Below are positions 1,356 to 17,784 of a DNA stretch of 64,000 bases, in pieces (position 1 is the first letter of the stretch; each line of letters starts with the position of its first letter). Origin of the DNA: Pseudomonas saudimassiliensis (GTDB lineage Bacteria; Pseudomonadota; Gammaproteobacteria; Pseudomonadales; Pseudomonadaceae); assembly GCF_000939975.1 (NCBI RefSeq), contig NZ_LK391969.1, positions 372,001 through 436,000 on the forward strand, written 5' to 3'. The translations under genes were made by a program, and so were the position numbers. The notes under the pieces were generated by a model. It did no database searches, was not told where the DNA came from, and was given only the letters and a program-made list of their open reading frames with translations.

Positions 1356-2453
1356 ATGGATTTACTGCAGAAAAGGCCCCTTAAGTTATACCGATATTTC
1401 TTCGGTACGGCAGAGTTTAACGAAGCGAGATTCGAACTCAGAATCAACGAGCGACCCGTAGCAATAGAACGCAGGCCTCTTGTTTTGCTGGCCAAGATCC
1501 TCGAGCACGCTGATCAGGTCGTAACCAAAGCCGAATTGCTGCATACCGTCTGGGGTGGGCGGATCACCGTCGAAAACGTCCTGGCCAATGCCATGGCCAA
1601 ACTGCGCAAGGCGCTGGGGGATAACGCCGGCCTACTGGTGACCATCCCTCGGGTGGGTTATCGCATCCAGGGTCCGGTAAAGAAGATGGAGGCGCAGGCT
1701 GACTGCGCCCTGATCCCAGCCCCACCGCGCCCCGAGTCAGTGTTCACCAGCGCCCGTATCGCACCGCCCGTCACCTCGTTTCATTATCTCGATGTAATCT
1801 CACTAAACCCCACCGAGTTTGATCGCTCCGGCACTACCCTGGACGCCGGTACCAGCGTAGCCGAGCGAACCGAACGCGCCGGAGGCAAGGCCTTCCACCC
1901 TGAAGGTGACCCGACCCTGGAAGCCTGGGCCGGGCGGCGTCACCTGGACATCATGCCGATCGAACAGCGGCTCAGCCTGTTCCTGGCCCTGGCAAAAGCA
2001 GTATCGCTGCAACACGCACGAGGCACCGTGCACGCGTTCCTGCAACCCGACAATCTGCTTGTGGCGGACAACGGCAGTATTCGCATCACTGCACCGGAAA
2101 GACGCCTTACAGATGCTGGCCAAGCGCAGAAAGCCACCGTCGGCTATTTCTACCGAGCCCCGGAAACCTATCGTGATAACGACGTCTCCCCACGTAGCGA
2201 TATCTACTCGCTGGGCATACTGCTGTATCAGCTGCTGACCTCGGATTTCAACCGACCACTGCTTCCCGACTGGCGACAAGACATCACCAACAGATCGTTC
2301 CAGCACCTTATCGAAGCAGCCACGCACTCCTGCCCTTCTTTGCGCCCGGAGTCCGTGGAAGAGTTTGTAAGACCTTTATACACCCACCGAATCGGACATC
2401 ACCAACAGCCTGAATTCAAGATGGCGAACTTGGCGAGCATGCTCCGGCGATAA
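1356..2453 (+). CDS. OmpR/PhoB-type winged helix fused to a degenerate protein-kinase domain
   Basis: 365 residues. Residues about 15-105 form a C-terminal-type response-regulator winged helix: RPLVLLAKILEHADQVVTKA, the recognition segment around TVENVLANAMAKLRKALGD, and the wing VTIPRVGYRI. No receiver domain precedes it and no membrane helix follows, unlike CadC. Residues about 198-345 resemble a Ser/Thr kinase C-lobe: helix E (IEQRLSLFLALAKAVSLQHA), catalytic loop VHAFLQPDN at 225-233, APE at 268-270 and SDIYSLGILLYQLL. The catalytic HRD aspartate is replaced (H-A-F), DFG is replaced by I-T-A, and no glycine loop or VAIK lysine is visible in the short segment before helix E, so it should be a pseudokinase. 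It lies immediately upstream of the EPS operon and probably controls it; that is inference. Confidence 0.8.
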   Translation: MDLLQKRPLKLYRYFFGTAEFNEARFELRINERPVAIERRPLVLLAKILEHADQVVTKAELLHTVWGGRITVENVLANAMAKLRKALGDNAGLLVTIPRVGYRIQGPVKKMEAQADCALIPAPPRPESVFTSARIAPPVTSFHYLDVISLNPTEFDRSGTTLDAGTSVAERTERAGGKAFHPEGDPTLEAWAGRRHLDIMPIEQRLSLFLALAKAVSLQHARGTVHAFLQPDNLLVADNGSIRITAPERRLTDAGQAQKATVGYFYRAPETYRDNDVSPRSDIYSLGILLYQLLTSDFNRPLLPDWRQDITNRSFQHLIEAATHSCPSLRPESVEEFVRPLYTHRIGHHQQPEFKMANLASMLRR

Positions 2454-2580
2454 CGAGCTTTTAATTATTAACTGCCTTCCCCAAACGCGCCTTCGGCCGT
2501 TGTGGGTGGCCTGTGCCTGTTTGACCAGTAGTACCACTTTAAAGAACCACCAGTCTTCAGGATCCGACTAGAAATCCTGG

Positions 2581-2593
2581 GGCGGTAGCGTGC
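2581..2593 (+). promoter_or_regulatory. ops / JUMPStart element in the EPS operon leader
   Basis: GGCGGTAGCGTGC is an exact match to the operon polarity suppressor (ops) core known from enterobacterial LPS, capsule and haemolysin operons, and the flanking CCTGG before it and CT after it resemble the longer JUMPStart sequence. It lies in the sense orientation 77 bp before the first EPS gene. A short inverted repeat, CAGGAT at 2558 and ATCCTG at 2574, comes just before it. ops pauses RNA polymerase and recruits RfaH, a NusG paralogue that prevents termination in long operons. No clear sigma-70 promoter is visible in the 2454-2557 part of the gap. Confidence 0.75.
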
Positions 2594-2669
2594 CTGGAGC
2601 GCCGTTTCCCTCCACTCCGGAGCCGGGGCTTCACAACCACCTTCAATATGCGCGAGCGCAAGGGAAATC

Positions 2670-4895
2670 ATGCAAAACATCACCCCCCCATATCGGAACC
2701 AGAGCAGTACCGACGAAATCGACCTCGCGGTCCTTTTCGGGGCACTGATCGATGGCAAATGGATCATTGCCGGCCTGACTCTGCTTTTCGCCCTGCTGGG
2801 CGTGACCTACGCCATCCTGGCAACCCCCATTTATCAAGCCAACGCCCTGATTCAGATTGAAGAAAAGAGCGGTGGCCTGGCGGGCATGTCCGAGCTGTCC
2901 GACGTATTCGGCGGGCCGTCCAAGGCGGTAACCGAAATTGAATTGATCAAATCCCGTGCGGTGATCGGCCAAGCCGTCACCAACCTCAAACTGGATACCG
3001 TATCGTCGCCCAGCTACTTTCCGCTTATCGGCCACTGGGCAGCGCGCCGCTTCAAGCCGGAGTATGAAGGCGAACTGGCCCAACCCTGGTTTGGCCTGGC
3101 GCAATACGCCTGGGGCGGCGAAGAGCTGGAAATATTCCAGCTGGCAGTCCCGCCGGCCTACCTTGATCAACCCCTCGCCCTCGTCGCTGGCGCCCATGAC
3201 TATTTCAGCCTGTACAACGATGACGGTGAGCAGCTGCTGACCGGCCAGGTCGGCCAGCAGGTCGAGCAGAACGGTTTCAAGGTCCAGATCGCCAAACTTA
3301 TCGCCCGTCCCGGCACGCGCTTCACCGTCGCCCATAACCGGCTGCTGAACAGCATCATGTACCTGCAGAACGAGCTGGATGCCAGCGAGCGCGCCAAGGA
3401 CTCGGGCATCATCAGCCTGTCGCTACAGCATGAAGACCACCAGCATGCCATCCGCGTACTGGATGAGATCAGCCGGCTGTATGTTCGCCAGAACGTCGAG
3501 CGCAACTCGGCGGAAGCCGCGCAGAGCCTCGAATTCCTGCGCGACCAGTTGCCCCAGGTGCGCTCCGAGCTGGAGCGTTACGAGCAGGCCCTGAACGACT
3601 TCCAGACCAGCAGCAAATCGGTGGATATCTCCATTGAAACCCAGTCGGTCCTCAATCAGATCATCGAACTGGACACGCTGATTTCCGAGCAGAACCTCAA
3701 GCGTTCTGAACTGCAACGCCGCTTTACCGGTGAACACCCTTCTTATCAGATCCTCCAGGAGCAGACCCAGCAGCTACAACGCCAGCGCAACGAGTTGAGC
3801 GCCAAGGTAGATCAACTGCCGGAAACCCAGCAGGAGCTGCTGCGCCTGTCGCGGGACGTCGCTGTCACCACCGAAGTCTACACCGCGATGCTCAACCGTT
3901 CCCAGGAACTGGATGTGCTGCGCGCGGGCACCGTCGGCAACGTTCGCATCATCGATGCCGCCGACGCCAGCGTCACCCGCCCGGTCAAGCCGCGCAAGGC
4001 CATCGTCGCCATACTCTCTACGCTGTTCGGCGGCTTCCTTGGCGTCGCCCTGGTGCTGCTGCGCCAGATCCACAACCGTGGCGTGGAGAATCCGGAGCTC
4101 ATCGAGCAGCTCGGCCTGCCGGTGTACGCCAGCATCCCCTTCAGCCGGGAACAGGAATTCCTGGAAAAGCACATGCGCAGCAGTAATCGCGCCGCCCAGC
4201 ATGACAGTCTGATCCTGGCGCTGAAGAACCCCGCTGACCTGGCCGTGGAGTCCCTGCGCCGGCTGCGTACCAGCCTGCACTTTGCCCATGCCGGGGCCAT
4301 GAATAACGTGTTGATGATCACCGGCCCCAGCCCGGGCGTGGGTAAATCTTTCGTCGCGGTAAACCTGGCGACCACCATGGCCCAGACCGGCCAGCGCGTC
4401 CTGCTGATCGACGCGGATATGCGCAAGGGCTACATCAACAAGGTGTTCCGCATGCCTGCCCGGGACGGCCTGTCCGACCTGCTGACCTCGCGCATCGACA
4501 TCCAGACCGCGATTCGGCCTACCGAAGTCGAACGACTGGACCTGATCGCCCGCGGCCGTATTCCGCCGAATCCATCCGAGTTGCTGATGCACGACAACTT
4601 CCGCCGCTTCCTCCGGGAAATCGACAACCAATACGACCTCATCATCATCGACACGCCACCGGTGCTGGCGGTTACCGACGCGTCCCTGGTCGGCCGCGAA
4701 GCGGGTATCTGCCTGCTGGTTACCCGCTTCGGGCAGAACTCGGCGAGGGAGATCGAGGCGGCCAAACGCTGCTTCGAGCAGGACGGCATCCAGCTCAAGG
4801 GCGCCATTTTCAACGCCGTCGTCAAGAAGGCCTCGGCCTACGGCTACAACCAGTACGGCAGCTACTTCTATGAATACAAATCAGAAAAGGCCTAG
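2670..4895 (+). CDS. wzc: Wzc-type polysaccharide co-polymerase with cytoplasmic tyrosine autokinase (BY-kinase)
   Basis: 741 residues, the normal length for a fused Gram-negative Wzc. There is a Wzz-type N-terminus with a first membrane helix at about 31-50 and a long periplasmic part with coiled coil at about 285-400. A second helix lies at about 443-464, just after the Pro-rich SVTRPVKPRK. The cytoplasmic kinase has Walker A GPSPGVGKS (552-560), Walker A' VLLIDADMRK (577-586) and Walker B DLIIIDTPP (656-664). The C-terminal tail carries six clustered tyrosines between 724 and 736, the autophosphorylation cluster. It controls chain length and export of the polymer. The ATG at 2670 has AAGGGA upstream. 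The cognate phosphatase Wzb and outer-membrane channel Wza are not in the window. Confidence 0.93.
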   Translation: MQNITPPYRNQSSTDEIDLAVLFGALIDGKWIIAGLTLLFALLGVTYAILATPIYQANALIQIEEKSGGLAGMSELSDVFGGPSKAVTEIELIKSRAVIGQAVTNLKLDTVSSPSYFPLIGHWAARRFKPEYEGELAQPWFGLAQYAWGGEELEIFQLAVPPAYLDQPLALVAGAHDYFSLYNDDGEQLLTGQVGQQVEQNGFKVQIAKLIARPGTRFTVAHNRLLNSIMYLQNELDASERAKDSGIISLSLQHEDHQHAIRVLDEISRLYVRQNVERNSAEAAQSLEFLRDQLPQVRSELERYEQALNDFQTSSKSVDISIETQSVLNQIIELDTLISEQNLKRSELQRRFTGEHPSYQILQEQTQQLQRQRNELSAKVDQLPETQQELLRLSRDVAVTTEVYTAMLNRSQELDVLRAGTVGNVRIIDAADASVTRPVKPRKAIVAILSTLFGGFLGVALVLLRQIHNRGVENPELIEQLGLPVYASIPFSREQEFLEKHMRSSNRAAQHDSLILALKNPADLAVESLRRLRTSLHFAHAGAMNNVLMITGPSPGVGKSFVAVNLATTMAQTGQRVLLIDADMRKGYINKVFRMPARDGLSDLLTSRIDIQTAIRPTEVERLDLIARGRIPPNPSELLMHDNFRRFLREIDNQYDLIIIDTPPVLAVTDASLVGREAGICLLVTRFGQNSAREIEAAKRCFEQDGIQLKGAIFNAVVKKASAYGYNQYGSYFYEYKSEKA

Positions 4896-4941
4896 CACCC
4901 ACCTCCCTTGCGGCAACGACTGAATTCATCGAGGAATCACC

Positions 4942-6264
4942 ATGAAAGTAACCGTATTTGGCACTGGCTATGTGGGTCTGGTGCAGGGCGCCGTGCTGGC
5001 CGAAGTCGGCCACCAGGTGGTCTGCGTGGATGTGGACCCGGACAAGATCGCGCGCCTGCAGCAGGGCCAGATTCCGATCTATGAACCGGGCCTGGAAAAC
5101 CTGGTGCGCGACAACCACGCCGCCGGCCGGCTGCAGTTCACCACCGACGCGGCGGCCGGTGTGCGCCACGGCAGTGTCCAGTTCATCGCCGTTGGCACGC
5201 CCCCGGACGAGGATGGCTCCGCCGACCTGCAATATGTGCTGGCGGTCGCCGCTACCATCGCCGAGCACATGGACGGCCACCGCATCATCATCAACAAATC
5301 CACCGTACCGGTGGGCACAGCCCGCCAGGTCTGCGCGACGGTCGAAGCCATCCTGGCCGAGCGCAACGACGCGAGGCTGACCTTCGATGTGGTGTCCAAC
5401 CCCGAGTTTCTCAAGGAAGGCTCCGCCGTGGCGGACTGCATGCGGCCGGACCGCATCATCATCGGGACCGACAGCGGCGAGGCCGAGGAGGTGATGCGCG
5501 AACTCTACGCGCCGTTCAACCGCATTCACGAAAAGATCATCATCATGGATGTGCCGAGTGCCGAGCTGACCAAGTACGCCGCCAACTGCATGCTGGCGAC
5601 CAAGATCAGCTTCATGAATGAAATGGCCAACCTGGCCGAGCTGCTCGGCGCTGATATCGAGATGGTACGCCAAGGCATCGGGTCGGATCCGCGTATCGGC
5701 TATCACTTCATCTACCCCGGGGCCGGCTACGGCGGCTCCTGTTTCCCCAAGGACGTCCAGGCACTGATCCGCACCGCGGAAGTGGTCGACTTCGATGCGC
5801 GGGTGTTGCGGGCGGTGGAATCGCGCAACAAGGAGCAGAAGACCCTCCTCTACCGCAAGATCTCCAACCATTTCCAGGGCGACCTGGAGGGCAAGACCTT
5901 TGCCATCTGGGGCCTGGCCTTCAAGCCCAATACCAATGACATGCGCGAAGCGCCCAGCCGGGTACTGATGGAAGCACTCTGGCAGGCCGGCGCCCGGGTG
6001 CATGCCTACGATCCCGAAGCCATGGAAGAGACCCAGCGGCTATACCTGCACTGTGACGACCTGCAGCTGTGCGGCACCAAGGAGTCGGCCCTCAAGGGCG
6101 CCGACGCCCTGGTCGTGGTTACTGACTGGCAGGCCTTCAAGGCTCCGGACTTCGACCTCATCCACGACTATCTGAACTACCCGGTGATCTTCGACGGCCG
6201 CAACCTCTACGACCCCAAACGCATGGCGAAAAAGGGCTTCACCTATTACGCCATCGGACGCTGA
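4942..6264 (+). CDS. ugd: UDP-glucose 6-dehydrogenase
   Basis: 440 residues of the UDP-glucose/GDP-mannose dehydrogenase family. The Rossmann motif GTGYVG is at 7-12, the substrate segment [19 protein letters not shown] at 153-171, and the catalytic cysteine is C267 in GGSCFPKD. The C-terminal domain has the family signature [16 protein letters not shown]. It makes UDP-glucuronate from UDP-glucose with two NAD+; family sequence and the WcaJ-type initiator in the same operon favour glucose over GDP-mannose. The start has GAGGAATC upstream. The next gene follows its stop by one base, so translation is coupled. It implies glucuronic acid in the polymer. Confidence 0.93.
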
Positions 6265-6265
6265 G

Positions 6266-7474
6266 ATGAAGATCGCCATTCTCAATACGCTATACCACCC
6301 CTACCGGGTTGGCGGCGCCGAAGTCTCGGTACAGCTGCTCGCCGAAGGCTTGGCTGGCCAGGGGCATACAGTAAGCGTCATCACCTTGCATGAGGGGCGA
6401 CAGCCCAGCGTCGAGCAAGCCGGCGGCGTCACGCTGTATCGCCTGCCCGTGCGCAACCTGTACTGGCCCTTCGGCGGCCACCCGTCCCGGCTACGGCGAC
6501 TGCTCTGGCATGTGCTGGATACCTATAACCCGCTGGCGCGCGCCGATGTATCGCGCCTGCTGCGGCAGATCCAGCCGGACCTGCTGCACACCAACAACCT
6601 GGCGGGCTTTTCCGTTGCGGTATGGGACGCCGCCCGGGCCGTGGGCATCCCGGTGGTGCACACCTCCCGGGACTATTACCTGATTCATCCCAACTGCACG
6701 CTCTACAGCGGTGAGCGCAACCAGGATCCGCGCTCGCTGAGTTGCCGGTTGTTTTCCCTGGTCCGCAAGTGGCGCTCCCACCAGGTCCAGCACTACGTCG
6801 GGATCAGTGAACACGTGAGTGAATTGCACCAACGCCTGGGCTATTTCCGCCAGGCACCGGCGGAGGTCATCTACAACTCGATCAGCCAGCCCGCGGCAAC
6901 ACCACCCCGAGCCAGCGATAAGGGCACGGTGCTGGGCTACATGGGCCGGATCGAGCCGGCCAAGGGCCTCGAAACCGCATTGCAGGCCTGCCGTAGACTC
7001 GGCCCCGGCTTCAGCCTGCGCATTGCCGGCAAGGGCGATAGCGCCTATGTCGCCCGGCTGCAGGCGGCCTATGCCGACCAGGACCTGACCTGGCTGGGGC
7101 ACTCAGCACCGGAGGCATTCTTCCCGAGCATCGACATCATGCTGGTGCCCTCACAGTGGGCCGAGCCCCTGGGCCGGGTGGTACTGGAAGCCAGCTCCTA
7201 TGGCGTGCCCGTGGTCGGTTCGGACGCCGGTGGCATCCCCGAGATCATTCGCCCCGGGGAGACCGGGTTCGCCTGCCCCGCCGGTGACGTGGATGCCTTC
7301 GTCGCAGCCGTCCAGCGGCTGGCCCGCAGCGACCGCACGCTGCTGCGTGAACATTGCCTGGCCTGGGCGGCGCAGTTCTCCGGCGAGCGGATCACCGCAC
7401 GCTACCTGCGCGCCTATCAGAGTCTGGATGGCACCCAGGAAAAACCGCTGCCCGCTACCCAGACGACCGTCTGA
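6266..7474 (+). CDS. Glycosyltransferase family 4 (GT-B fold)
   Basis: 402 residues with two Rossmann-like domains. The N-terminal acceptor domain begins MKIAILNTLYHPYRVGGAEV with the usual GG turn; the C-terminal nucleotide-sugar domain starts at GYMGRIEPAKGLETAL (about 224-239). The EX7E catalytic motif is E300-P-L-G-R-V-V-L-E with GVPVVGSDAGGIPE after it. It is a retaining transferase adding one sugar to the lipid-linked repeat on the cytoplasmic face of the membrane. Donor and linkage cannot be read from sequence. It lies one base after ugd. Confidence 0.87.
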   Translation: MKIAILNTLYHPYRVGGAEVSVQLLAEGLAGQGHTVSVITLHEGRQPSVEQAGGVTLYRLPVRNLYWPFGGHPSRLRRLLWHVLDTYNPLARADVSRLLRQIQPDLLHTNNLAGFSVAVWDAARAVGIPVVHTSRDYYLIHPNCTLYSGERNQDPRSLSCRLFSLVRKWRSHQVQHYVGISEHVSELHQRLGYFRQAPAEVIYNSISQPAATPPRASDKGTVLGYMGRIEPAKGLETALQACRRLGPGFSLRIAGKGDSAYVARLQAAYADQDLTWLGHSAPEAFFPSIDIMLVPSQWAEPLGRVVLEASSYGVPVVGSDAGGIPEIIRPGETGFACPAGDVDAFVAAVQRLARSDRTLLREHCLAWAAQFSGERITARYLRAYQSLDGTQEKPLPATQTTV

Positions 7475-7529
7475 ACCCGGCCGCCCCGCTCCCCTGTCAG
7501 AGCCCAGCTCGCGTTATGTCAGAGACCCC

Positions 7530-8837
7530 ATGAAAATCCAGTACCTGCTCAATGCCGCCTTCCTGGCCCTGGTATGCCTGTTTGCCGTATTCGGCAACCT
7601 GCCGCGCTTCGTCCCCGTGGCCGGCTCCTTCGGCAACGTCAATGCCAGCGAATTGGTGATCTACCTGTGTGCCGCGCCCATCCTGATCAGGAACTTCAAA
7701 CGCCTGATCACTTCGCGCGCGGTGCTGTTCCTGCTGGCCGTCAACACCTTCTCCCTGGGCGTTGGCATATTCCACTACGGCGTGGCGATGGACTCGGTCT
7801 TCTACAATATCCGCCTCAGCGCCATGATCCTGTCGGGCTTTGCGGCCGGCGTCGCCCTGCAATGGGTGTTCCGCGACGACATCCCACGCCTGACCAAGGC
7901 CTTCGTCATCACCTACGGCGCCGCCTCCGTCTTCAGCTTCGTGCTGCTGGCGATCTTCCCGGATTCCACGGTGCTCTGGCTCAAGCTGGAGCAGATGGGC
8001 ATCAATTTCACCGGTGACCCCCATCAATTTCGCCTGGTCTCCACCTACCTGGACCCCAACTTCTTCGGCACCATCATCGTGTTGCCGATCCTGATGGCCA
8101 CCCTGGTGCTCCAGCGCACCGGCTACATCGCGCTCTTCCTGCTGATGGTGGTGGCGCTACTGTTCAGCTTCTCCCGCTCGGGCATCTCCCTGGCCCTGCT
8201 CGCGTTTGCCTGCGTCTTCGGCCTGCGTGCCCTGAGCATGATTACCCAGTTCCAGAGCCGGAATATCGGCGTACGGCCGCTGCATGTGTATCTGCTATTG
8301 CTGTCGCCCTTCCTGATCATGGCCTTGGCCGTGATCTTCGAAAGCCAGCTCGAGCGCGTCATCGAACGCTTCACCACCACCCGTGATGACAGCTCCGCGC
8401 TGTCGCGGCTGAAGGCCTTCGATACCGGGATGGAGCTGATCGCGCAGCACCCACTGCTCGGCCACGGCTACAACTTCGCCATCCGTTTCCTGTTCAAGGA
8501 CGGCACCAAGGTCGATTCCAGCCTGCAGATGGTGATCATGAGCTATGGCTTCATCGGCTCCCTGGTCACCCTGGTGGCAGGAGGAATCTGGGCCTGGGTC
8601 GTGGCCGGCAAGCTGCGCCAACTGCCGTCTCCCGAGCCCTATCAGCTGTTTCGCAAGCTCATCATCTACACCGCCCTGACCCTGCTCTGGGCCGGGCATT
8701 TCAACCAGATCGTCTTCTACCCGTTCTGGCTCTTGCCGGTGCTGGCCCTGTTCTTCTACTTCGATCAGCTCTGCGTGAGCCTGAAGTCACCCCACCTCAT
8801 TCGGAGACCACATGGAACACTCGCACATAGCTTTTGA
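7530..8837 (+). CDS. wzy: O-antigen ligase/polymerase-family membrane protein (Wzy-like)
   Basis: 435 residues, almost entirely hydrophobic with about 10-12 membrane helices. A larger periplasmic loop includes LDPNFFG and SFSRSGISLALLA, the latter typical of Wzy_C/O-antigen ligase domains (RSG after a helix). A second conserved patch, HPLLGHGYNFAIR, fits the G-x-G-x-x region near the C-terminus. It would polymerise the repeat units in the periplasm, together with the Wzx and Wzc in the same operon. The ATG at 7530 was chosen because the protein then begins directly with the first membrane helix; the longer in-frame opening overlaps the upstream glycosyltransferase in another frame. The stop overlaps the next gene by 26 bp. 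Confidence 0.83.
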   Translation: MKIQYLLNAAFLALVCLFAVFGNLPRFVPVAGSFGNVNASELVIYLCAAPILIRNFKRLITSRAVLFLLAVNTFSLGVGIFHYGVAMDSVFYNIRLSAMILSGFAAGVALQWVFRDDIPRLTKAFVITYGAASVFSFVLLAIFPDSTVLWLKLEQMGINFTGDPHQFRLVSTYLDPNFFGTIIVLPILMATLVLQRTGYIALFLLMVVALLFSFSRSGISLALLAFACVFGLRALSMITQFQSRNIGVRPLHVYLLLLSPFLIMALAVIFESQLERVIERFTTTRDDSSALSRLKAFDTGMELIAQHPLLGHGYNFAIRFLFKDGTKVDSSLQMVIMSYGFIGSLVTLVAGGIWAWVVAGKLRQLPSPEPYQLFRKLIIYTALTLLWAGHFNQIVFYPFWLLPVLALFFYFDQLCVSLKSPHLIRRPHGTLAHSF

Positions 8838-9813
8838 TTCCAGGTGGATCGGCCCCCATGGGATCGGCCGCTTTGCCACGGAAGTGCAGGACCGTCTGAA
8901 TTTCACCAAGCTGTTCGACGGCGCCGGCAACCCGGCGTCCTTCGCCTCCTCGGTACGCCTGGGCCGCTGGCTCGCCGGCAGCGGGGCCAAGGCGCTCTAC
9001 AGCCCCGGTTACATTCCGCCGTCGGGCAGCCGGCTGCCCTTCGTGTTCACTATCCACGACCTCAACCACATCGATGTGGAACACAACAGCTCGGCGCTCA
9101 AGCGCCTCTATTACCAGTTGATCATCCGTCCAGCAGTGCACCGGGCCGAGCAGGTGCTGACCGTCTCGGAATTCTCCCGCGGGCGGATCGTCGAGTGGGC
9201 GGAGTGTGACCCCGACCGGGTCACCGTGGTCGGCAATGGCGTCAGCGATATCTTCCACGCCCAGGTCGTGCCCATGCAGCCCGGCTATGCCTACTTCTTT
9301 TGCTGCAGCAACCGCAAGGGCCACAAGAATGAAAAGCGATTGGTGCAGGCGTTCAAGCTGAGCGGCCTGCACCGTGACTGCAAGCTGGTGTTCACCGGCA
9401 ATGCCGATGTCGAGCTGCAGCAGCTGATCGCCCGCGAGGACCTGCAGGACCGGGTCCTGTTCACCGGTCGCCTGAGTGAGATCGAACTGGCCAGCTGGTA
9501 CCGGGGGGCTATCGCCACGGTCTTCCCGTCCCTCTATGAGGGCTTCGGCCTGCCCGTTGCCGAGAGCATGGCCTGCGGTACGCCGGTGATTACTTCCGAG
9601 GTGTCCTCTATGCCGGAGGTCGGCGGTGACGCCGCACTCTACGTCGATCCCCATGACAGCGACAGCATCTCCATGGCGATGCTCGCCGTCGCCGGCAATA
9701 CCGAGCTCAGCAAGCAACTCTGCGCCCGTGGACTCGTCCAGGCGCAAAACTTCACCTGGGACCGAACCGCGGGCCTGGTCAGTACCGCGCTGGCCCGGTT
9801 GCCCCTTCATTGA
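8812..9813 (+). CDS. Glycosyltransferase family 4, mannosyltransferase-B-like
   Basis: 333 residues. The N-terminus IAFDSRWIGPHGIGRFATEV and the following VFTIHDLNHI are typical of the GT4 MtfB-like group. The donor-binding half has FTGRLSEIELASWYRGA, then PSLYEGFGLPVAESMACGTP, whose E-GFGLPVA-E is the EX7E motif. It starts inside the end of the polymerase gene (26 bp overlap), which shows translational coupling. The donor may be GDP-mannose, since manC lies downstream, but this is inference. Confidence 0.86.
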   Translation: MEHSHIAFDSRWIGPHGIGRFATEVQDRLNFTKLFDGAGNPASFASSVRLGRWLAGSGAKALYSPGYIPPSGSRLPFVFTIHDLNHIDVEHNSSALKRLYYQLIIRPAVHRAEQVLTVSEFSRGRIVEWAECDPDRVTVVGNGVSDIFHAQVVPMQPGYAYFFCCSNRKGHKNEKRLVQAFKLSGLHRDCKLVFTGNADVELQQLIAREDLQDRVLFTGRLSEIELASWYRGAIATVFPSLYEGFGLPVAESMACGTPVITSEVSSMPEVGGDAALYVDPHDSDSISMAMLAVAGNTELSKQLCARGLVQAQNFTWDRTAGLVSTALARLPLH

Positions 9814-9848
9814 TCTGTCCAGCTCCCCCATTCAGCAAGGAACCCACC

Positions 9849-10994
9849 ATGAAAGTTGCCCTCGTCGTCGACTGGCTTACCGTGTACTCAGGCGCAGAAC
9901 GGGTGGTCGAGCAAATACTGCAGCTCTATCCCGATGCCGATCTGTTTTCACTGATTGACTTCCTGCAGGATGATCAACGGGCATTTCTCAACGGCAAACA
10001 GGCAACCACCTCGTTCCTGCAACGCATGCCCTTCGCCCGCACACGCTACCGCAGCTACCTGCCGCTGATGCCGCTTGCCATCGAACAATTCGATCTCAGC
10101 GGCTACGACTTAATCATCTCCAGTTCCCATGCGGTCGCCAAGGGCGTGCTGACCGGGCCGGACCAACTGCACATCTGCTACATCCATTCGCCGGTGCGCT
10201 ACGCCTGGGACCTGCAACACCAATACTTGATGCAATCGGGCCTCAACAAGGGTCTGAAGAACTGGATCGCCCGCTGGTCGCTGCACTACATCCGCAATTT
10301 CGACGCGCGCTCCTCCCTCGGGGTGAATGCCTTTATTGCCAATTCCGAGTTCATAGCCCGTCGCGTGCAGAAGTGCTATCGGCGGCCCGCCGAGGTGGTG
10401 TATCCACCGGTGAACATCACCGATTTCATCCCGCAACCCGACAAGCAGGACTTCTACGTCGCGGCCTCGCGCATGGTGCCCTACAAGCGCATGGACCTGA
10501 TCGCGCAGGCGTTCCGGCAGATGCCCGAGCGCAAGCTGGTGATCATCGGCGACGGCCCGGATCTCGACAAGGTCCGCGCCGTCGCCGCCGGCGCCAGCAA
10601 CATCACGGTGACCGGTTTCCTGCCCTTTCCGCAGATGCGCCACTACATGCAGCAGGCGAAAGCCTTCGTCTTTGCCGCTGAGGAGGATTTCGGCATCACC
10701 CCGGTTGAGGCCATGGCCTGTGGCACCCCCGTCATCGCCTACGGCAAGGGTGGCGCCCTGGAAACCGTGGTGGACGGCCGGACCGGCTTCTTCTTTCCCC
10801 AGCAAACACCCGAATCGCTCATCCAGGCAGTGGAGCATTTCGAACAACAAGGCCACAGCATCCGTCCCGAGCATTGCCGTGAACAGGCAGAGCATTTCTC
10901 CATCGAGCTGTTCCGCGAGCGTTTTTCCCGGGCGGTGGATGCGGCCATCCAGGAGTTCAATCCGAACCCTAACTCAACCCTTGCAGGAGTATGA
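9849..10994 (+). CDS. Glycosyltransferase family 4, WbaZ-like (putative mannosyltransferase)
   Basis: 381 residues starting [20 protein letters not shown], characteristic of the WbaZ-like GT4 subgroup, which includes GDP-mannose-dependent enzymes. The acceptor half has [10 protein letters not shown] and [11 protein letters not shown]; the donor half has [25 protein letters not shown] and [20 protein letters not shown] with EX7E. The ATG at 9849 follows AAGGAACCC; an in-frame ATG 13 codons upstream overlaps the previous gene and lacks a ribosome site. The stop TGA overlaps the first ATG of manC. Mannose as donor fits the neighbouring manC. Confidence 0.86.
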
Positions 10995-10996
10995 CC

Positions 10997-12448
10997 ATGT
11001 TGCAGCCCGTAATCATGGCCGGTGGTTCCGGCTCCCGTCTCTGGCCGCTGTCTCGCCAGCTCAACCCGAAGCAGTTCCTGGCACTGGCTGACCAGCAACT
11101 GACCATGCTGCAAGCCACCATCAAGCGGCTCGACGGCCTGGACTGTGCCCAACCGCTGCTCATCTGCAATGAACAGCACCGGTTCCTGGCAGCAGCGCAG
11201 CTGGACCAGCTGGGCATGGACGACACCCGCATCATCCTCGAACCCTGCGGCCGCAATACCGCGCCCGCCATTGCCCTAGCCGCCATCAAGCTCCACACCA
11301 TCGGCCAGGACCCGCTGCTGCTAGTCCTCCCGGCCGACCACAAGATTGCCGATACCGCCGCCTTCCAGGCCAGCCTGCGGCAAGCCATCCCCCTGGCCGA
11401 GGCCGGCAAGCTGGTGACCTTCGGCATAGTACCCACCGCGGCGGAGACCGGTTATGGCTATATCCAGCAGGGCGAACCGGCGGGCGACGGCGCCTTCAGC
11501 GTCAGCCGCTTCGTCGAGAAGCCAGACGCGGCCGCTGCCGATGACTACCTGCGTTCGGGCCAGTATCTGTGGAACAGCGGCATGTTCCTGTTCCGCGCCT
11601 CCCGCTATCTGGAAGAGCTGGCCGACCACCGCCCGGACATCCTCACCGCCTGCCGGCAGGCTGCACTGGATAATACCTACGACCTGCTGTTCACCCGGGT
11701 GCATGCCGAAGCTTTCGCCGCCTGCCCGAGCGAATCCATCGACTACGCGGTAATGGAACACACCGCCGACGCGGTGGTGGTCAGCCTGGACGCTGGCTGG
11801 AGCGATATCGGCTCCTGGTCAGCGCTGTGGGACATCAGCGACAAAGACGCCCATGGCAACGCCACCCAGGGCGACACCCTGGCCCATGACTCGCGCAACA
11901 CCCTGATCCGCGCCGAGCACCGGCTGGTTGCCACCCTGGGAGTCGATGACCTGATCATTGTCGAAACCAAGGACGCCGTGCTGGTCGCCCACAAGGACCG
12001 CGTCCAGGAGGTGAAAGCGCTGGTGGAGCAGCTCAAGTCCACCGGTCGGCAGGAGCACATCAGCCACCGCGAGGTCTACCGGCCCTGGGGCGTGTACGAC
12101 TCGATCGACCACGGCTATCGCTATCAGGTCAAGCACATCACCGTGAAGCCGGGTGCCAAGCTATCCCTGCAGATGCACCACCACCGGGCCGAACACTGGA
12201 TCGTGGTCTGCGGCACGGCCAAGGTGACCAACGGCGACAAGACCTACCTGGTGACCGAGAACCAGTCCTCCTATATCCCGGTAGGCCAGGTGCACACCCT
12301 GGAAAACCCCGGCGTCATCGACCTGCAATTGATCGAGGTGCAGTCGGGCTCCTACCTGGGCGAGGATGACATCGTGCGCTTCGAGGACCGTTACGGCCGG
12401 GTCGAGAAGGTGACCGGCGACACCAGGGCAGTGACGCCACTCAAATGA
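10997..12448 (+). CDS. manC: Mannose-1-phosphate guanylyltransferase / mannose-6-phosphate isomerase
   Basis: About 483 residues, the usual length of bifunctional ManC/AlgA/XanB. The pyrophosphorylase signature [12 protein letters not shown] lies at the N-terminus, FVEKPD is the lysine-bearing substrate site, and the C-terminal cupin has [20 protein letters not shown], with the metal-binding histidines of type II phosphomannose isomerase. It makes GDP-mannose from GTP and mannose-1-P and interconverts fructose-6-P and mannose-6-P; phosphomannomutase must come from elsewhere. AGGAG at 10985-10989 is well spaced from the ATG at 10997 but only one base from the in-frame ATG at 10991, so I prefer 10997. 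Confidence 0.92.
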
Positions 12449-13935
12449 GCGACCGCGACCCCGTATCGGCCACGCCGCCACCACGCAGCCTCGGCAGTAT
12501 TGCGGCCCGGGGCGCCGTCCTCACGCTGGGTGGCCAGGGCGTGAAGATCATGCTGCAGTTCTGCGGCATCGTGGTGCTCGCCCGACTGCTGTCACCCAAC
12601 GACTATGGCCTCATGGCCATGGTCGTGGTGCTGACGGGTATCGGGGAGGTGCTGCGCGACCTCGGGCTGTCCTCCGCCGCTGTCCAGGCGCGGAGCCTGT
12701 CCGACCAGCAACGCAGCAACCTGTTCTGGATCAACTCGGCAATCGGCCTGGGCCTGGCGCTGCTGGTGTTCGCCATCGCTCCGGCCATTGCTGCCTTTTA
12801 TGATGAACCCCGGCTGATTCCGATTAGCCGGGTGCTGGCGATCACCTTCGTGCTCAACGGCATCGCCACCCAGTATCGGGCACAGCTCAACCGCGGCCTG
12901 CAATTCGGGGCGCTGGCGATCGTCGATATCCTCGGCATGGCGGCCGGCCTGGCCGCTGGGCTGTATCTGGCAATCACCGGCTGGAACTACTGGGCACTGG
13001 TCGGGCAGCAACTGGCCATGTCCACCGCCACCCTACTGACCCTGCTGTGCGCCGCTCGCTGGCTGCCGGGCAGGCCCCGGCGCAATGCAGCCATGGGCGA
13101 CCTGCTGCGCTATGGCAGCAACCTGATGGGCACCCAGCTGATTGGCTACGCCACCCGCAATCTCGACAGCCTGATCATCGGTTATCGGTTCGGCGCCGAG
13201 TCCCTGGGGTTGTACAGCAAGTCCTACCAGCTCTCCATGTTGCCGCTGAACCAGATCAACGCGCCCGCCACTACCATCGCCCTGCCGGTACTGTCACGGC
13301 TGCAGCAGGAGCCGGCGCGCTATGACCAGTTCCTGCTCCATGGCCAGACAGTGATGCTGCATCTGATCGTCGGTCTGCTGGCCAGCGCCGCGGCATTGGC
13401 CGAGCCGCTGATCCTGTTGGTGCTGGGGCCGCAATGGCAGGCCGCCGTGCCGGTGTTTCGCATTCTCGCGGTAGCGGGGATTTTCCAGGCGGCCAGCTAT
13501 GCAAGCTACTGGGTCTTCCTCTCCAAGGGGCTGACGCCACTGCATCTGCGGTTCACCCTGATCTCGCGTCCGGTAATGATCGCCGCCATCTTTCTGGGCG
13601 CCTACTGGGGCATGCAGGGCGTGGCGCTGACCGTCGCGGCCGGCACCGGTGTGCTGTGGCTCTGGGGGCTGTACTTCCTGCGGCATTCCGGCGCGCCGGT
13701 CCCCGCCATGCTGCGTAACGGCCTGACCATCATCGGCGGCCACGCCCTCAGTGCCTGCCTGGCCTGGTACAGCGCCAGCCAGTGGGGCAGCTCACTGCTG
13801 ATGCAGCTGCTGATCGGCGGCGCGGCCATGGCCAGCGCCCTGGTGCTGCTCGGACTGATCTGGCCGCCCTTCCGCCGCAGTCTGCTGCAGGTGCTCGGCT
13901 CCGGCGCCCTGCTGCGCGCACGCCGCAAACAATAG
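12445..13935 (+). CDS. wzx: Wzx-type lipid-linked oligosaccharide flippase
   Basis: 496 residues with about 12-14 membrane helices. The N-terminus is typical of the MATE/MOP polysaccharide transport family (WzxC/TuaB group): a helix with [20 protein letters not shown] followed by [12 protein letters not shown], and later [20 protein letters not shown] with the [19 protein letters not shown] stretch. It flips undecaprenyl-linked repeat units to the periplasm for Wzy. The start ATG overlaps the manC stop (ATGA). Together with Wzy and Wzc it defines this as a Wzx/Wzy-dependent pathway. Confidence 0.9.
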
Positions 13936-13969
13936 CCATGAACTTTTCAACCACTTGCTCGGAACAGTC

Positions 13970-15220
13970 ATGAAAAAACACATCAGAGCCGCACTGGGGC
14001 ATCCGCGCCTGCTGCATCTGTTCGATCGCCTGATGTTCACCATCGGCCCTGCGACCAGTCAACCTTCGACCTTCAGCCTGCTGATCGCGCCTCCCGGCGC
14101 GGGCAATATCGGCGACCAGGCGATGGTCGAGGCCTTTCTGGAAAACACCCCGGGCAACGTGCGGATCATCTGCCACGGCCAGCAGGATATCTGTATTCCC
14201 GATCAGCACGCCGAGCGCACCCGGGTCATCGTGCTGCCGGGGTTGATCTATGGGCACCTGCTGCCACACCTGCGCAGTATCGGGGTTTTTCGCCGACTGC
14301 TCGGTCGCGCGCAGATGGTCGCCATTACCGGGGCGGATATCATGGACGGCGCCTACAACTGGCAAGCTTCCACCAATCGGGCCAACATCGCCTGGCTCGC
14401 CGCCCAGGCCAACATCCCGGTACGCATTCTGGGCTTCAGCTGGAACGGCCGGGCACATCCCCAGGCCCTGGCCGCCCTGAAGCGGGCCACGGCCGCCGGC
14501 GTGCAATTGTGCCTGCGTGATCCGCTGTCCGCCGAGCGGGCCCGGGCCGACGGCCTGGCCAATGTGACCGAAGTGGCGGATATCGTCTTCGCCGCGCGCA
14601 CTGTCAACTTCGCCACCGCTTCGCAATTGCTGTATTCCCTACCTTCCCAGTGCAACTACGCACTGGTCAATGCCAGTGGCCTGATTGGCCGCTCGTCGGT
14701 GCAGATCGAGGGCTACGTGCGCATCATCCGCGAGCTGCAACACCATGGCCTGCAGGTGATACTGCTGCCCCACGTCTCCCGCCCCGGCGGTGATGATCTG
14801 CCCGTCTGCCGGGAGATCTGCGAGGCATTGGGCGACTCGACGGTGCTGATGATCGAGCGCCTGCTGTCTCCGGCAGAAATCCGCGGCCTGACCGCTGGCG
14901 CCACCCTTACCGTCACGGGCCGCATGCACCTGGCAATCATGTCCCTGTACAGCGGCGTGCCCGCCATCACCCTCGCCACCCAGGGCAAGGTCGAGGGCAT
15001 GATGCGGCTCTTTGGTGCGGAATTTCTGGCCATCGAACCACGGCCCGACTTCGCCGAACGCATCGTCGCTCTGATCCAGCAGGTGCTGGCCCGCCCGGAC
15101 GACCTGCGCCAACACCTGCACAGCAAGCTGCCCGCCGTGCGCACCCTGGCCCGGCGCAATTTCGACGCGGCCCAGCCCGAGCCGGCCCGCCAGGAGGAGT
15201 TGTCCTGTGCCTACGATTGA
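13970..15220 (+). CDS. Polysaccharide pyruvyl transferase family protein
   Basis: 416 residues. The family fingerprint PPGAGNIGDQAMVEAFL lies near residues 43-59, and the C-terminal half has the conserved VTGRMHLAIMSLYSGVPAI region of CsaB/WcaK-type enzymes, including the expected Arg and His. These enzymes ketalise sugar residues with pyruvate from phosphoenolpyruvate, adding negative charge to the polymer. The ATG at 13970 with GGAAC upstream was chosen over an in-frame TTG at 13955. The end overlaps the next gene by 14 bp, and the two families very often occur as a pair in EPS clusters. Confidence 0.88.
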   Translation: MKKHIRAALGHPRLLHLFDRLMFTIGPATSQPSTFSLLIAPPGAGNIGDQAMVEAFLENTPGNVRIICHGQQDICIPDQHAERTRVIVLPGLIYGHLLPHLRSIGVFRRLLGRAQMVAITGADIMDGAYNWQASTNRANIAWLAAQANIPVRILGFSWNGRAHPQALAALKRATAAGVQLCLRDPLSAERARADGLANVTEVADIVFAARTVNFATASQLLYSLPSQCNYALVNASGLIGRSSVQIEGYVRIIRELQHHGLQVILLPHVSRPGGDDLPVCREICEALGDSTVLMIERLLSPAEIRGLTAGATLTVTGRMHLAIMSLYSGVPAITLATQGKVEGMMRLFGAEFLAIEPRPDFAERIVALIQQVLARPDDLRQHLHSKLPAVRTLARRNFDAAQPEPARQEELSCAYD

Positions 15221-16601
15221 ACAGGTAGTCGCGCGGGATATCTGCGTCGGTTGCGGCGCCTGCCAGTTCGCCACCCGCGGCGACATCACCGTCCAGCGCA
15301 ACGACCTGGGTTACTACCGTGCCGACCTGACCACTGCCAGCCCCCAGAGCATCGCCACCGGCAGCCGCGTCTGCCCCTTTGCCCAGGAGGCGCCGAACGA
15401 GGATGCCATTGCCGCCGAGGTGTTCCCCGCCGTGCTCCGGGAGGACCCGCGCACCGGCAAGTACCTCAGCATCGCCGCCGCCCGGGTCACCGCCGATGAC
15501 TACCTGCTCGGCAGCAGCTCCGGCGGTCTCACCAGCTGGATTCTGATCCAGTTGCTGGAGACAGGGCATATCGACGGGGTCATCCACGTCGGCCAGGGTG
15601 GCGACGGGCTGTTTTCCTACCGCATCTCCCGTAGCCGCCAGGAATTGACTGCCCGCCGCAAGTCCATCTATTACTCGACCAGCTTCAATAGCGCGCTACA
15701 CAGTGTCCACGGAGATGGCCAGCGCTACGCCCTGGTGGGCGTGCCCTGTTTCATCAAGAGCGCGCGCCTGCTGTGCCGGGAAGATCGGACCCTGGCCACC
15801 CAACTGATCTACTTTATCGGCCTGGTCTGCGGCCATCTGAAATCCGCCGCCTTCGCCGAGTTGCTGGCCTGGCAATGCGGCGTCGGCCCCAACGAACTGG
15901 CCGCGGTGGACTTTCGCGTCAAGCAACCCGGTGAGGATGCCGGGCGTTACCGCTTCGGTGCCCGCGCCAAAGCAGCGACCGTCGGCGGCGCCGACGACTG
16001 CGAATGGACCACCCGCCCCACCAGCCAACTGCTGGGGGGTAACTGGGGCCACGGCATGTTCCAGCTCAACGCCTGCAACTACTGCGACGACATTTTCGCT
16101 GAAACCGCCGATGTGGTGCTGGGCGACGCCTGGCTACCGGAATACCGGGCCGACTGGCGCGGCACCAATGTCCTGCTGTGCCGCAACGCCGTGATCCAGC
16201 GGCTGATCGACCGCGGCCAGGCCGAAGGCGAACTCTTCATTGCTCCCCTGTCCGCCGCCGAAGCCGCCCAATCCCAGGCCGGCAACTTCCGCCACCGTCG
16301 CGAAGGGCTGGCCCTGCGCCTGGCCGACGACCAGAACGCAGGCCTGTGGGCGCCAACCAAGCGGGTAATGCCCGACGCGAACATCGTTGGCAGCCGCCGT
16401 CGGGAACTCATCCGGCGGCGCCGCGAGCTGTCCCGCGCCAGCCACGAACTGTTCGCCACGGCAAAACGCCAGGGGTCCCTCGACCTATTCATCGAGCGCA
16501 TCACCCCCCTGGTACAGCAATACGAGAAATACAACACCCCCTCGCTACCACGCCGGCTCCTCGGCCTGGCCAAACGCAGAATCAAGCTGATTTTGTCATG
16601 A
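15207..16601 (+). CDS. Coenzyme F420 hydrogenase/dehydrogenase beta-subunit family, EPS-associated
   Basis: 464 residues. A GTG start is preceded by AGGAGG. The N-terminus carries a ferredoxin-like site, CVGCGACQF then VCPFA, giving CxxCxxC...CP for one 4Fe-4S cluster. The FrhB-type body has the conserved LGSSSGGLTSWILIQLLE, YSTSFNSAL, GVPCFIKSARL and, near residue 290, CNYCDDIFAETADVVLGDAW. Archaeal relatives reduce F420, which pseudomonads are not known to make. Bacterial members sit next to pyruvyl transferases in polysaccharide clusters and their reaction is unknown. It overlaps the pyruvyl transferase gene, so a linked role is likely. Confidence 0.85.
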   Translation: MPTIEQVVARDICVGCGACQFATRGDITVQRNDLGYYRADLTTASPQSIATGSRVCPFAQEAPNEDAIAAEVFPAVLREDPRTGKYLSIAAARVTADDYLLGSSSGGLTSWILIQLLETGHIDGVIHVGQGGDGLFSYRISRSRQELTARRKSIYYSTSFNSALHSVHGDGQRYALVGVPCFIKSARLLCREDRTLATQLIYFIGLVCGHLKSAAFAELLAWQCGVGPNELAAVDFRVKQPGEDAGRYRFGARAKAATVGGADDCEWTTRPTSQLLGGNWGHGMFQLNACNYCDDIFAETADVVLGDAWLPEYRADWRGTNVLLCRNAVIQRLIDRGQAEGELFIAPLSAAEAAQSQAGNFRHRREGLALRLADDQNAGLWAPTKRVMPDANIVGSRRRELIRRRRELSRASHELFATAKRQGSLDLFIERITPLVQQYEKYNTPSLPRRLLGLAKRRIKLILS

Positions 16602-16675
16602 AAACCAAAACGTCCCGGCGTTTGGCTCCCGCCCAAGAGCATTCGCAAACCTAATACCCAGATAAGGAAAACGTT

Positions 16676-17707
16676 TTGAAGAAGATTACAGATCCCCAGC
16701 TGAAGATCGGCTATGTGCCCGGGTACGCGGAGGCTAACGCCTATGTCCAGCGGACCCAGGAAGCACTGGCCGAACTGGGTCAGGTCTATCCGCTGTCGCC
16801 CTCGACCAAGTCCCTGTGGCGACTGCTGAAATACCGTCCCGGCTTCTTCGATGTGATCATCGTCAACTGGCTGGAATACAAGACCGCCAACCCGCGGACC
16901 GGGCGCCTGTCGATGGCTGGCATACTGGCGTATTTCGTGCAGATTATCTTCCTCCGCCTCATGTGCCGGCGGTTGGTCTACATCCGCCACAACACCTATC
17001 CCCACCATGCCAGTAGCCAATCCGCCACCGCCCTGACCAAGGTGATCGACCTGTCCGAACACCTGTACTCCGTGACCGCCACCCACAGTGGCCACTATGC
17101 GGAGAAACACTACATTCCGCACCCGCTCTACCTGGAACAATCCATGTGCGCCAAGGGGCCGCACTTCATCGTCTTCGGGCGGGTCATGCCGTACAAGAAT
17201 ATCGAGCAGTTGATCCACCAGTTTCCCCTGGATGAACAACTCGTTATCGCCGGCCCCTGTGATGACCAGCCCTATTTCCGCAAGCTCCAGACCGCTGCCG
17301 AAGGCAAACAGATCACCTTCATCTCGCGCTTTCTGTCCGAAACGGAAGCCCGCCAACTGGTCGGCTCCGCCCGCGGCCTGATCCTGTCCCACGCCGATAA
17401 CGACATGATCGTCAGCGGCAGTTTCTTCTATGCCCTGAGCCTCGGCACCCCGGTCATTGCCGTGAAAACGCCCTTCTTCGACTGGGTACAGCGGGAGCTT
17501 GACCTGCAGGGCCTGACCCTGGTGGACGAGCTGGACAGCATCGGCGCGGCCATCAAGCAGCAGAACGACCTGCCCCCCGAGACCATTCTCAGCTCGGCGC
17601 GCAAATACTTTTCCATGGCCACCGTAACAGCCTGCTGGGACAACCTGTTCCGCCAGTTGCGCCTGCATGGCCCGGCGTGCCCGCCGGAACCCTTGTCCCG
17701 ACCATGA
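16676..17707 (+). CDS. Putative glycosyltransferase (GT-B fold)
   Basis: 343 residues starting at a TTG that has AAGGAAAA upstream; the 74-bp gap before it is the widest within the operon core. The N-terminal half is divergent (IGYVPGYAEANAYVQR, VIIVNWLEYK, LVYIRHNTYPHH). The C-terminal half has HFIVFGRVMPYKNIEQLI, VIAGPCDD and SHADNDMIVSGSFFYALSLG, the donor domain of GT4-like enzymes. The usual second Glu of EX7E is not obvious, so the catalytic assignment is weaker than for the other three transferases. It is likely the fourth transferase of the repeat unit. Confidence 0.75.
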   Translation: MKKITDPQLKIGYVPGYAEANAYVQRTQEALAELGQVYPLSPSTKSLWRLLKYRPGFFDVIIVNWLEYKTANPRTGRLSMAGILAYFVQIIFLRLMCRRLVYIRHNTYPHHASSQSATALTKVIDLSEHLYSVTATHSGHYAEKHYIPHPLYLEQSMCAKGPHFIVFGRVMPYKNIEQLIHQFPLDEQLVIAGPCDDQPYFRKLQTAAEGKQITFISRFLSETEARQLVGSARGLILSHADNDMIVSGSFFYALSLGTPVIAVKTPFFDWVQRELDLQGLTLVDELDSIGAAIKQQNDLPPETILSSARKYFSMATVTACWDNLFRQLRLHGPACPPEPLSRP

Positions 17708-17784
17708 CGGTAACGTCAGTCCCGGAGCCCGCCTCCGCCTGACGGCTTCCATACCACCTTGCGCCTCGACTGCAGGATCTTTCC

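Follow-up and report, generated by a model that had tools for sequence, protein, structure and literature searches.

We examined the leader of a run of exopolysaccharide (EPS) genes in a stretch of 64,000 nucleotides from Pseudomonas saudimassiliensis (contig NZ_LK391969.1, positions 372,001 to 436,000; hereafter the window). We propose that this leader carries a two-part signal for recruiting RfaH, a paralogue of NusG, composed of the ops element and of an RNA pseudoknot predicted directly upstream of it. That the leader serves as such a signal is, on our analysis, very probable; the evidence that the 30 nucleotides 5' of ops would fold as an H-type pseudoknot is strong but not final. The RfaH/ops system itself is already known. 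Its use in Halopseudomonas, to which the host genome appears to belong judging by its relatives (the nearest named relatives of the window's Wzc protein are from Halopseudomonas, with 89% identity for H. bauzanensis), adds a new member, while the pseudoknot and the order rfaH-ops-operon are new: literature searches of partial coverage returned no work linking RfaH with Halopseudomonas and no published account of a JUMPstart pseudoknot. The leader comprises the following elements.

2551..2592, + strand: JUMPstart-like leader RNA (RF01707, 25.3 bits, E 0.0027 in a 601-nt search, under the gathering score of 35)
2552..2555, + strand: 5' arm of predicted pseudoknot helix S1, AGTC, pairing with 2566-2569; covariation
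2558..2563, + strand: 5' arm of predicted pseudoknot helix S2, CAGGAT, pairing with 2574-2579; S2 pairs in 100% of alignment cells (28 leaders) and 93.6% (13 leaders)
2566..2569, + strand: 3' arm of S1, GACT, pairing with 2552-2555
2574..2579, + strand: 3' arm of S2, ATCCTG, one base before ops, pairing with 2558-2563
2581..2593, + strand: ops element GGCGGTAGCGTGC, exact match, 100% identical in six close orthologous leaders

Firstly, the ops element is exact and conserved. GGCGGTAGCGTGC lies on the sense strand with 76 nt between it and the ATG of wzc (2670), and is the sole exact copy within the window, which confirms an earlier reading of the sequence alone that had placed ops before the polysaccharide genes on their own strand. 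That reading had also called the leader an exact ops/JUMPStart element, a description that stands for the 13-mer and falls for the JUMPstart as a whole. A stem-loop (S2) is found directly 5' of the ops sequence, as membership of RF01707 requires; we did not, however, file the leader under this family and term it JUMPstart-like, because its score falls short of the gathering threshold, which is reached in only 5 of 198 Pseudomonadaceae genomes (hereafter the family; 148 have a match at E <= 1, a lax bound). The genome itself (3.34 Mb) holds three exact copies of GGCGGTAGCGTGC and 11 copies with one mismatch, where a simple base-composition estimate at 60% G+C predicts about 0.3 exact copies per genome. 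Since the 14-mer GGGCGGTAGCGTGC occurs three times in it and the reversed pattern once, the case against chance is drawn from conservation rather than from the count in a single genome. Searching the genus with Wzc gave matches in 27 of 37 genomes, and 26 loci were inspected upstream (two further matches at 58% identity, in G141 and G136, and weaker ones fell outside the upstream comparison). All 12 wzc loci at 67% identity or more have the leader, ten with the exact 13-mer and two (L129 and L130) with the variant GGCGGTAGCATTG, so that the conservation expected in orthologous leaders is upheld. The exact 13-mer begins 71-89 nt before wzc in six of these ten loci and 646-660 nt before it in four; in two of the distant loci, L126 and L128, which can be aligned in the right orientation, we read the intervening stretch as a low-molecular-weight phosphatase gene. 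No ops with up to one mismatch was detected within 1500 nt of the 14 inspected wzc loci at 57-61% identity, L147 included, the best match among them having two mismatches (L138). In an ungapped comparison of the six close orthologs, the 14-mer is 100% identical, the 36 nt before it (the JUMPstart block) 85% and the 6 nt after it 86%, whereas identity further out drops to 29-40%. Closer to the gene, an inverted repeat resembling GCGC-N2-GCGC (2645-2670) stands just 5' of AAGG and the ATG of wzc; most of the six ortholog leaders share it, though the remaining leader diverges.

Secondly, the genome encodes the expected regulator. It has two proteins with a NusG domain, NusG itself (219.9 bits on TIGR00922) and a separate RfaH (G000:C1:2871302-2871808, that is L002:1477-1983; 175.2 bits on TIGR01955 for a cut-off of 144.5), so that the nusG paralogue anticipated from the sequence is present. 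The ops-contacting residues of E. coli RfaH are given as K10, H20, R23 and R73 in the parts of PMC5995543 consulted, and those involved in autoinhibition as E48, I93 and F130 in parts of PMC7593976. By hand mapping, K10, R73, I93 and F130 are kept here, H20 and R23 are both replaced by N, and E48 by Q; at the K10 and R73 positions there is no variation among 31 aligned family proteins (the 30 best-scoring family loci and the RfaH of this genome). A further ops element lies 98 nt 3' of the rfaH stop codon (rfaH and ops together at L017:1503-2120, G000:C1:2871302-2871919), followed by a GlmS-like gene, a UDP-sugar dehydrogenase, an epimerase and glycosyltransferases (seven proteins scanned with Pfam, two of them without a match). 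With one ops operon directly 3' of rfaH and another elsewhere, a single cell would allow action on a neighbour to be set against action at a distance. A second wzc, 60% identical to that of the window (L147, G000:C1:2866755-2868962), is located near rfaH on the opposite strand and has no ops. As to related species, a passage of PMC7969949 reports that P. aeruginosa lacks RfaH, and one of PMC5532660 notes an RfaH-domain protein at the EPS locus of P. stutzeri 273; in several clusters, envelope genes are known to abound around rfaH (PMC7593976).

Thirdly, ops and rfaH occur together and are linked across the family. RfaH scores over the TIGR01955 cut-off in 126 of the 198 genomes, and three strong matches beneath it bring the rfaH-positive set to 129. 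The 14-mer gives 147 listed sites in 90 genomes, against 7 for the reversed pattern (counted by eye), and is found in 78 of the 129 genomes with rfaH versus 12 of the 69 without (Fisher p 3e-9, a value that is too small because the genomes are related). At least 48 ops sites, in at least 47 genomes, follow the 3' end of a listed rfaH match at a distance of 84-1030 nt, all 48 in the same orientation. More widely, 39 of 377 Gammaproteobacteria genomes contain the 14-mer, and GGCGGTAGCGTGC is present in the rfb and waaQ leaders of E. coli K-12. The presence of rfaH in the genome and the conserved leader thus support the interpretation of the EPS leader as a target of RfaH.

Fourthly, the sequence just upstream of ops covaries as two interleaved helices. 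When the leaders are set side by side, the order AGTC - CAGGAT - GACT - ATCCTG right before GGGCGG recurs, the 3' arm of S1 falling within the loop of S2. We searched for S1 with a procedure blind to it: among 158 distinct contexts with 70 nt upstream, 89 had a 5-bp S2 flush with GGG, and these formed 73 clusters. Over 216 registers, a 3-bp S1 fits 1.9 clusters on average, while one register fits 36 of the 73; the next-best registers (33 and 14 clusters) are the same helix shifted along, and among the 37 non-fitting clusters are integron-side sites and almost every site that lies outside the family. The two common spacings comprise 43 leaders, all of which were used to count S1 pairing: 147 of 172 alignment cells are paired (125.4 in shuffles, at most 136 in 1000), double differences number 532 (shuffles 155, maximum 347) and all four pairs are formed in 26 leaders (shuffles 11.5, maximum 19). 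The signal holds when the leaders are divided, with 64 of 68 cells paired in Halopseudomonas alone (reached by 4 of 1000 shuffles) and 83 of 104 outside it (10 of 1000). Taking both helices together in the 28 leaders that make up one spacing class, 86.4% of cells are paired, where shuffles reach 80.0% and slid versions 21-47%, and 31 cells are changed on both sides versus 13.7 in shuffles; for S1 alone, 83.0% are paired versus 74.3%, a level reached by 1 of 500 shuffles. In the other class, an alignment of 13 of the 15 leaders (L256 and L279, which fit S1 poorly, were left out) gives 89.5% versus 84.1%. The pairings observed for S1 include AGTC/GACT, TGTC/GACA, CGTT/AACG, CGTC/GACG and AGTT/AACT, plus intermediates with U.G. 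The loop 3' of S1 is A-rich, A31 being invariant and A30 present in at least 90% of leaders, and the first loop of 2 nt across a helix of 5-6 bp fits known H-type knots. The rfb and waaQ leaders of E. coli read CAG-N4-C(U/A)GG-UAG-CUG-N5-CC(A/U)G before GGGCGG and allow the same two interleaved helices to be drawn; they yield no covariation for S1, which does not differ between them and is limited to 3 bp, unlike the longer S1 of the window.

These elements suggest how the leader may work. On the model of the E. coli system, RNA polymerase would pause at ops while transcribing the leader, and RfaH would be recruited to the paused enzyme and allow antitermination; the nascent RNA just 5' of ops would fold as the H-type pseudoknot. 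By our own count, with the pause placed at U11 of ops as in a passage of PMC11001881, some 12 nt would then separate the end of S2 from the RNA 3' end, which puts the helix close to where the RNA exit channel opens. Our best guess for the likeliest role of the pseudoknot is a co-transcriptional backstop that would limit backtracking as polymerase escapes from ops, since a fold in the RNA immediately behind the enzyme would hinder such movement; as a second choice, it may offer a platform to RfaH or to the ribosome. The parts of PMC11001881 consulted describe RfaH-bound polymerase backtracking upon escape, aided by anti-backtracking factors, and distinguish the ops pause from an RNA-hairpin pause; they also conclude that ops and RfaH alone determine the cycle, and the backstop proposal runs against this conclusion. 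More broadly, we advance tentatively, as a claim that may well prove wrong, that JUMPstart could be a conserved H-type pseudoknot in both the Pseudomonadaceae and E. coli and the missing second half of the RfaH signal, blocking backtracking at the exit channel or positioning RfaH or the ribosome; ops on its own would then be less than the full signal in the cell. A covarying pseudoknot would provide a testable reason for the conservation of some 30 nt before ops, though ops suffices in vitro.

Several results weigh against this picture. Concerning RfaH, the exact 14-mer is missing from 51 of the 129 rfaH genomes; G185 has the wzc leader and no rfaH match (an assembly of 350 contigs, 92% complete); a simple scan found no sigma-70-like promoter upstream of the gene run; H20, R23 and E48 of E. 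coli RfaH are all replaced here; and the case for control of the operon is built on sequence comparison. Concerning the leader RNA, there is the RF01707 score below its gathering threshold, and pair-type counts stay within shuffles, the observed value being reached by 482 of 500 for the 28 leaders, 389 of 500 for S1 alone and 130 of 500 for the 13 leaders. The number of pairs with changes on both sides likewise falls within shuffles for the 13 leaders (190 of 500) and for S1 alone (390 of 500). The three inner pairs of S1 are missing in this register in 9 of the 43 leaders. Taken site by site, p values for the pseudoknot range from 0 to 0.79; 3 of 58 sites (L303, L204 and L198) have no candidate and several others (among them L298, L300-L302 and L235) fit only other arrangements. 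The shuffles, moreover, leave the relatedness of the leaders in, and it is for this reason that we regard the evidence for the pseudoknot as short of final.

The strongest competing explanation is that ops and RfaH do everything and that the upstream pairing amounts to a simple S2 hairpin or has another use, such as mRNA stability, with no pseudoknot at all. In its favour, RNAalifold draws only S2, lengthened into GGG, although the program is unable to draw pseudoknots, and the nested fold of the leader has no unusual stability (z 0.48), a result that also counts against our own proposal. A plain hairpin does not account for the covariation of S1 in a fixed register found blind to it, nor for its persistence in Halopseudomonas and in the remaining leaders taken separately, and we consider the explanation unlikely. 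It is far less probable still that another regulator recognises the block as double-stranded DNA and that ops is there incidentally: a conserved block of 30 nt could well be a protein site, and a winged-helix gene lies just upstream, but the helices tolerate U.G (the innermost S1 pair is of this kind in 11 of 73 clusters), which is meaningless in duplex DNA, the spacing from block to ops is fixed, and the same plan precedes polysaccharide genes that have no winged-helix gene, for instance at L017. That the 13-mer is a functionless chance match in a 3.3-Mb genome, as the expected frequency, the 11 one-mismatch copies and some exact copies of relatives inside predicted genes or an insertion-type gene might suggest, is ruled out for practical purposes by its conservation in orthologous leaders while the flanks diverge, by its junction with the JUMPstart match and by the excess of family sites over the reversed pattern.

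The proposed two-part signal resembles several known systems and departs from each. As for rfb and waaQ in E. coli, an exact ops stands in a polysaccharide leader behind an upstream stem, with RfaH encoded in the genome; unlike E. coli, one ops operon directly follows rfaH while that of the window is elsewhere, and two of the four ops-contacting residues differ. RirA, a small RNA from the E. coli waaQ leader that contains ops, binds RfaH when RNA polymerase is present, as stated in a part of PMC6358824. The leader shares with RF01707 the stem before ops and the polysaccharide context; Rfam and the relevant part of PMC2864571 draw a single stem-loop, unlike the second interleaved helix predicted here. 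As with the CL7 RfaH of Shewanella and UpxY of Bacteroides, which lie within polysaccharide operons (PMC7593976), a regulator gene adjoins its presumed target operon, although here rfaH is separated from the operon by ops, a known recruitment site, and more ops operons exist elsewhere in the genome. LoaP, too, combines a NusG paralogue with a structured leader RNA before a long operon; it binds an RNA hairpin according to the parts of PMC12691694 consulted, whereas the present leader has the ops signal in its DNA, and any binding of RNA by RfaH would be conjectural.

The genes on either side of the leader are the following.

1356..2453, + strand: winged-helix (Trans_reg_C) and kinase-like gene, 5' of the leader (PF00486, PF00069)
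2670..4895, + strand: wzc-like co-polymerase/tyrosine kinase, first gene 3' of the leader (PF02706 Wzz, PF23607 WZC_N, PF13807 GNVR, PF13614 AAA_31)
2670..19200, + strand: run of 12 polysaccharide genes on this strand, no gap exceeding 77 nt (open reading frames, Pfam)

The 12 genes (16.5 kb) would form one operon; a simple scan found no terminator-like site after them. Pfam assigns them to the Wzc-like co-polymerase/kinase, a UDP-sugar dehydrogenase, three glycosyltransferases, a Wzy-like protein (its open reading frame scanned as an in-frame piece from 7527, where there is no start codon), a ManC-like enzyme, a flippase, a pyruvyl transferase, an FrhB-like protein, a weak glycosyltransferase match and an initiating sugar transferase. 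The upstream gene fuses an OmpR-type winged helix to a kinase-like domain, of which Pfam matches only the C-terminal part; the sequence-only reading had named this gene alongside the NusG paralogue in the control of the operon, a suggestion for which adjacency is the sole support.

Sites resembling ops were also observed outside polysaccharide leaders, in two settings.

L188:301-1297, L195, L208, L211, L215, L223, L233, L237, L230 and, in this genome, L019 (G000:C1:188238): ops-like sites beside integron integrases
L018:2753-2765 (C1:1976752), L020 (C1:74415), L181, L182, L187, L189, L194, L209 and L234: second group of ops sites

In the genus, 18 of 25 chromosomal integron integrase genes (a 26th over the cut-off, at a contig end, was not counted) have an ops-like site 11-24 nt past their 3' end, reading toward the integrase. 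Six flanks carry the exact 14-mer; the 19 others inspected divide into 12 with up to two mismatches and 7 without a site, and for one of these 19 a shuffle also reached two mismatches. G179 has such a site with one mismatch and no rfaH. The copy of this genome at C1:188238 has one mismatch and adjoins a broken integron integrase, and as far as inspected is not a polysaccharide leader. A literature search of partial coverage found no published account of a link between ops and integron integrases.

The second group lacks the S1/S2 plan and shares another context, GGACAGCC upstream and GTAGTAATG with AAGCGAATACG downstream; the genes that follow it are orphan or defence-like (TIR, Mrr, HerA and STAND-like among those scanned). 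Two copies of this genome are, as far as inspected, not polysaccharide leaders: the exact one at C1:1976752, whose three following proteins gave one weak Mrr_cat match, and the one-mismatch copy at C1:74415, which shares its context. Direct-repeat searches revealed no cassette-like array in two non-polysaccharide ops regions, and an attC search returned none at each of 55 sites; because a relaxed search gave 2 attC in 132 kb versus 0.6 in shuffles, most of these regions are not demonstrable as cassette arrays. Ten hand-picked proteins from them had mixed or no Pfam matches, and L192 is the only region with attC-looking repeats. At L185, L227 and L229, finally, identical ops 14-mers lie on the opposite strand inside a multi-copy gene that is probably an insertion element, and their presence there is most likely due to chance.
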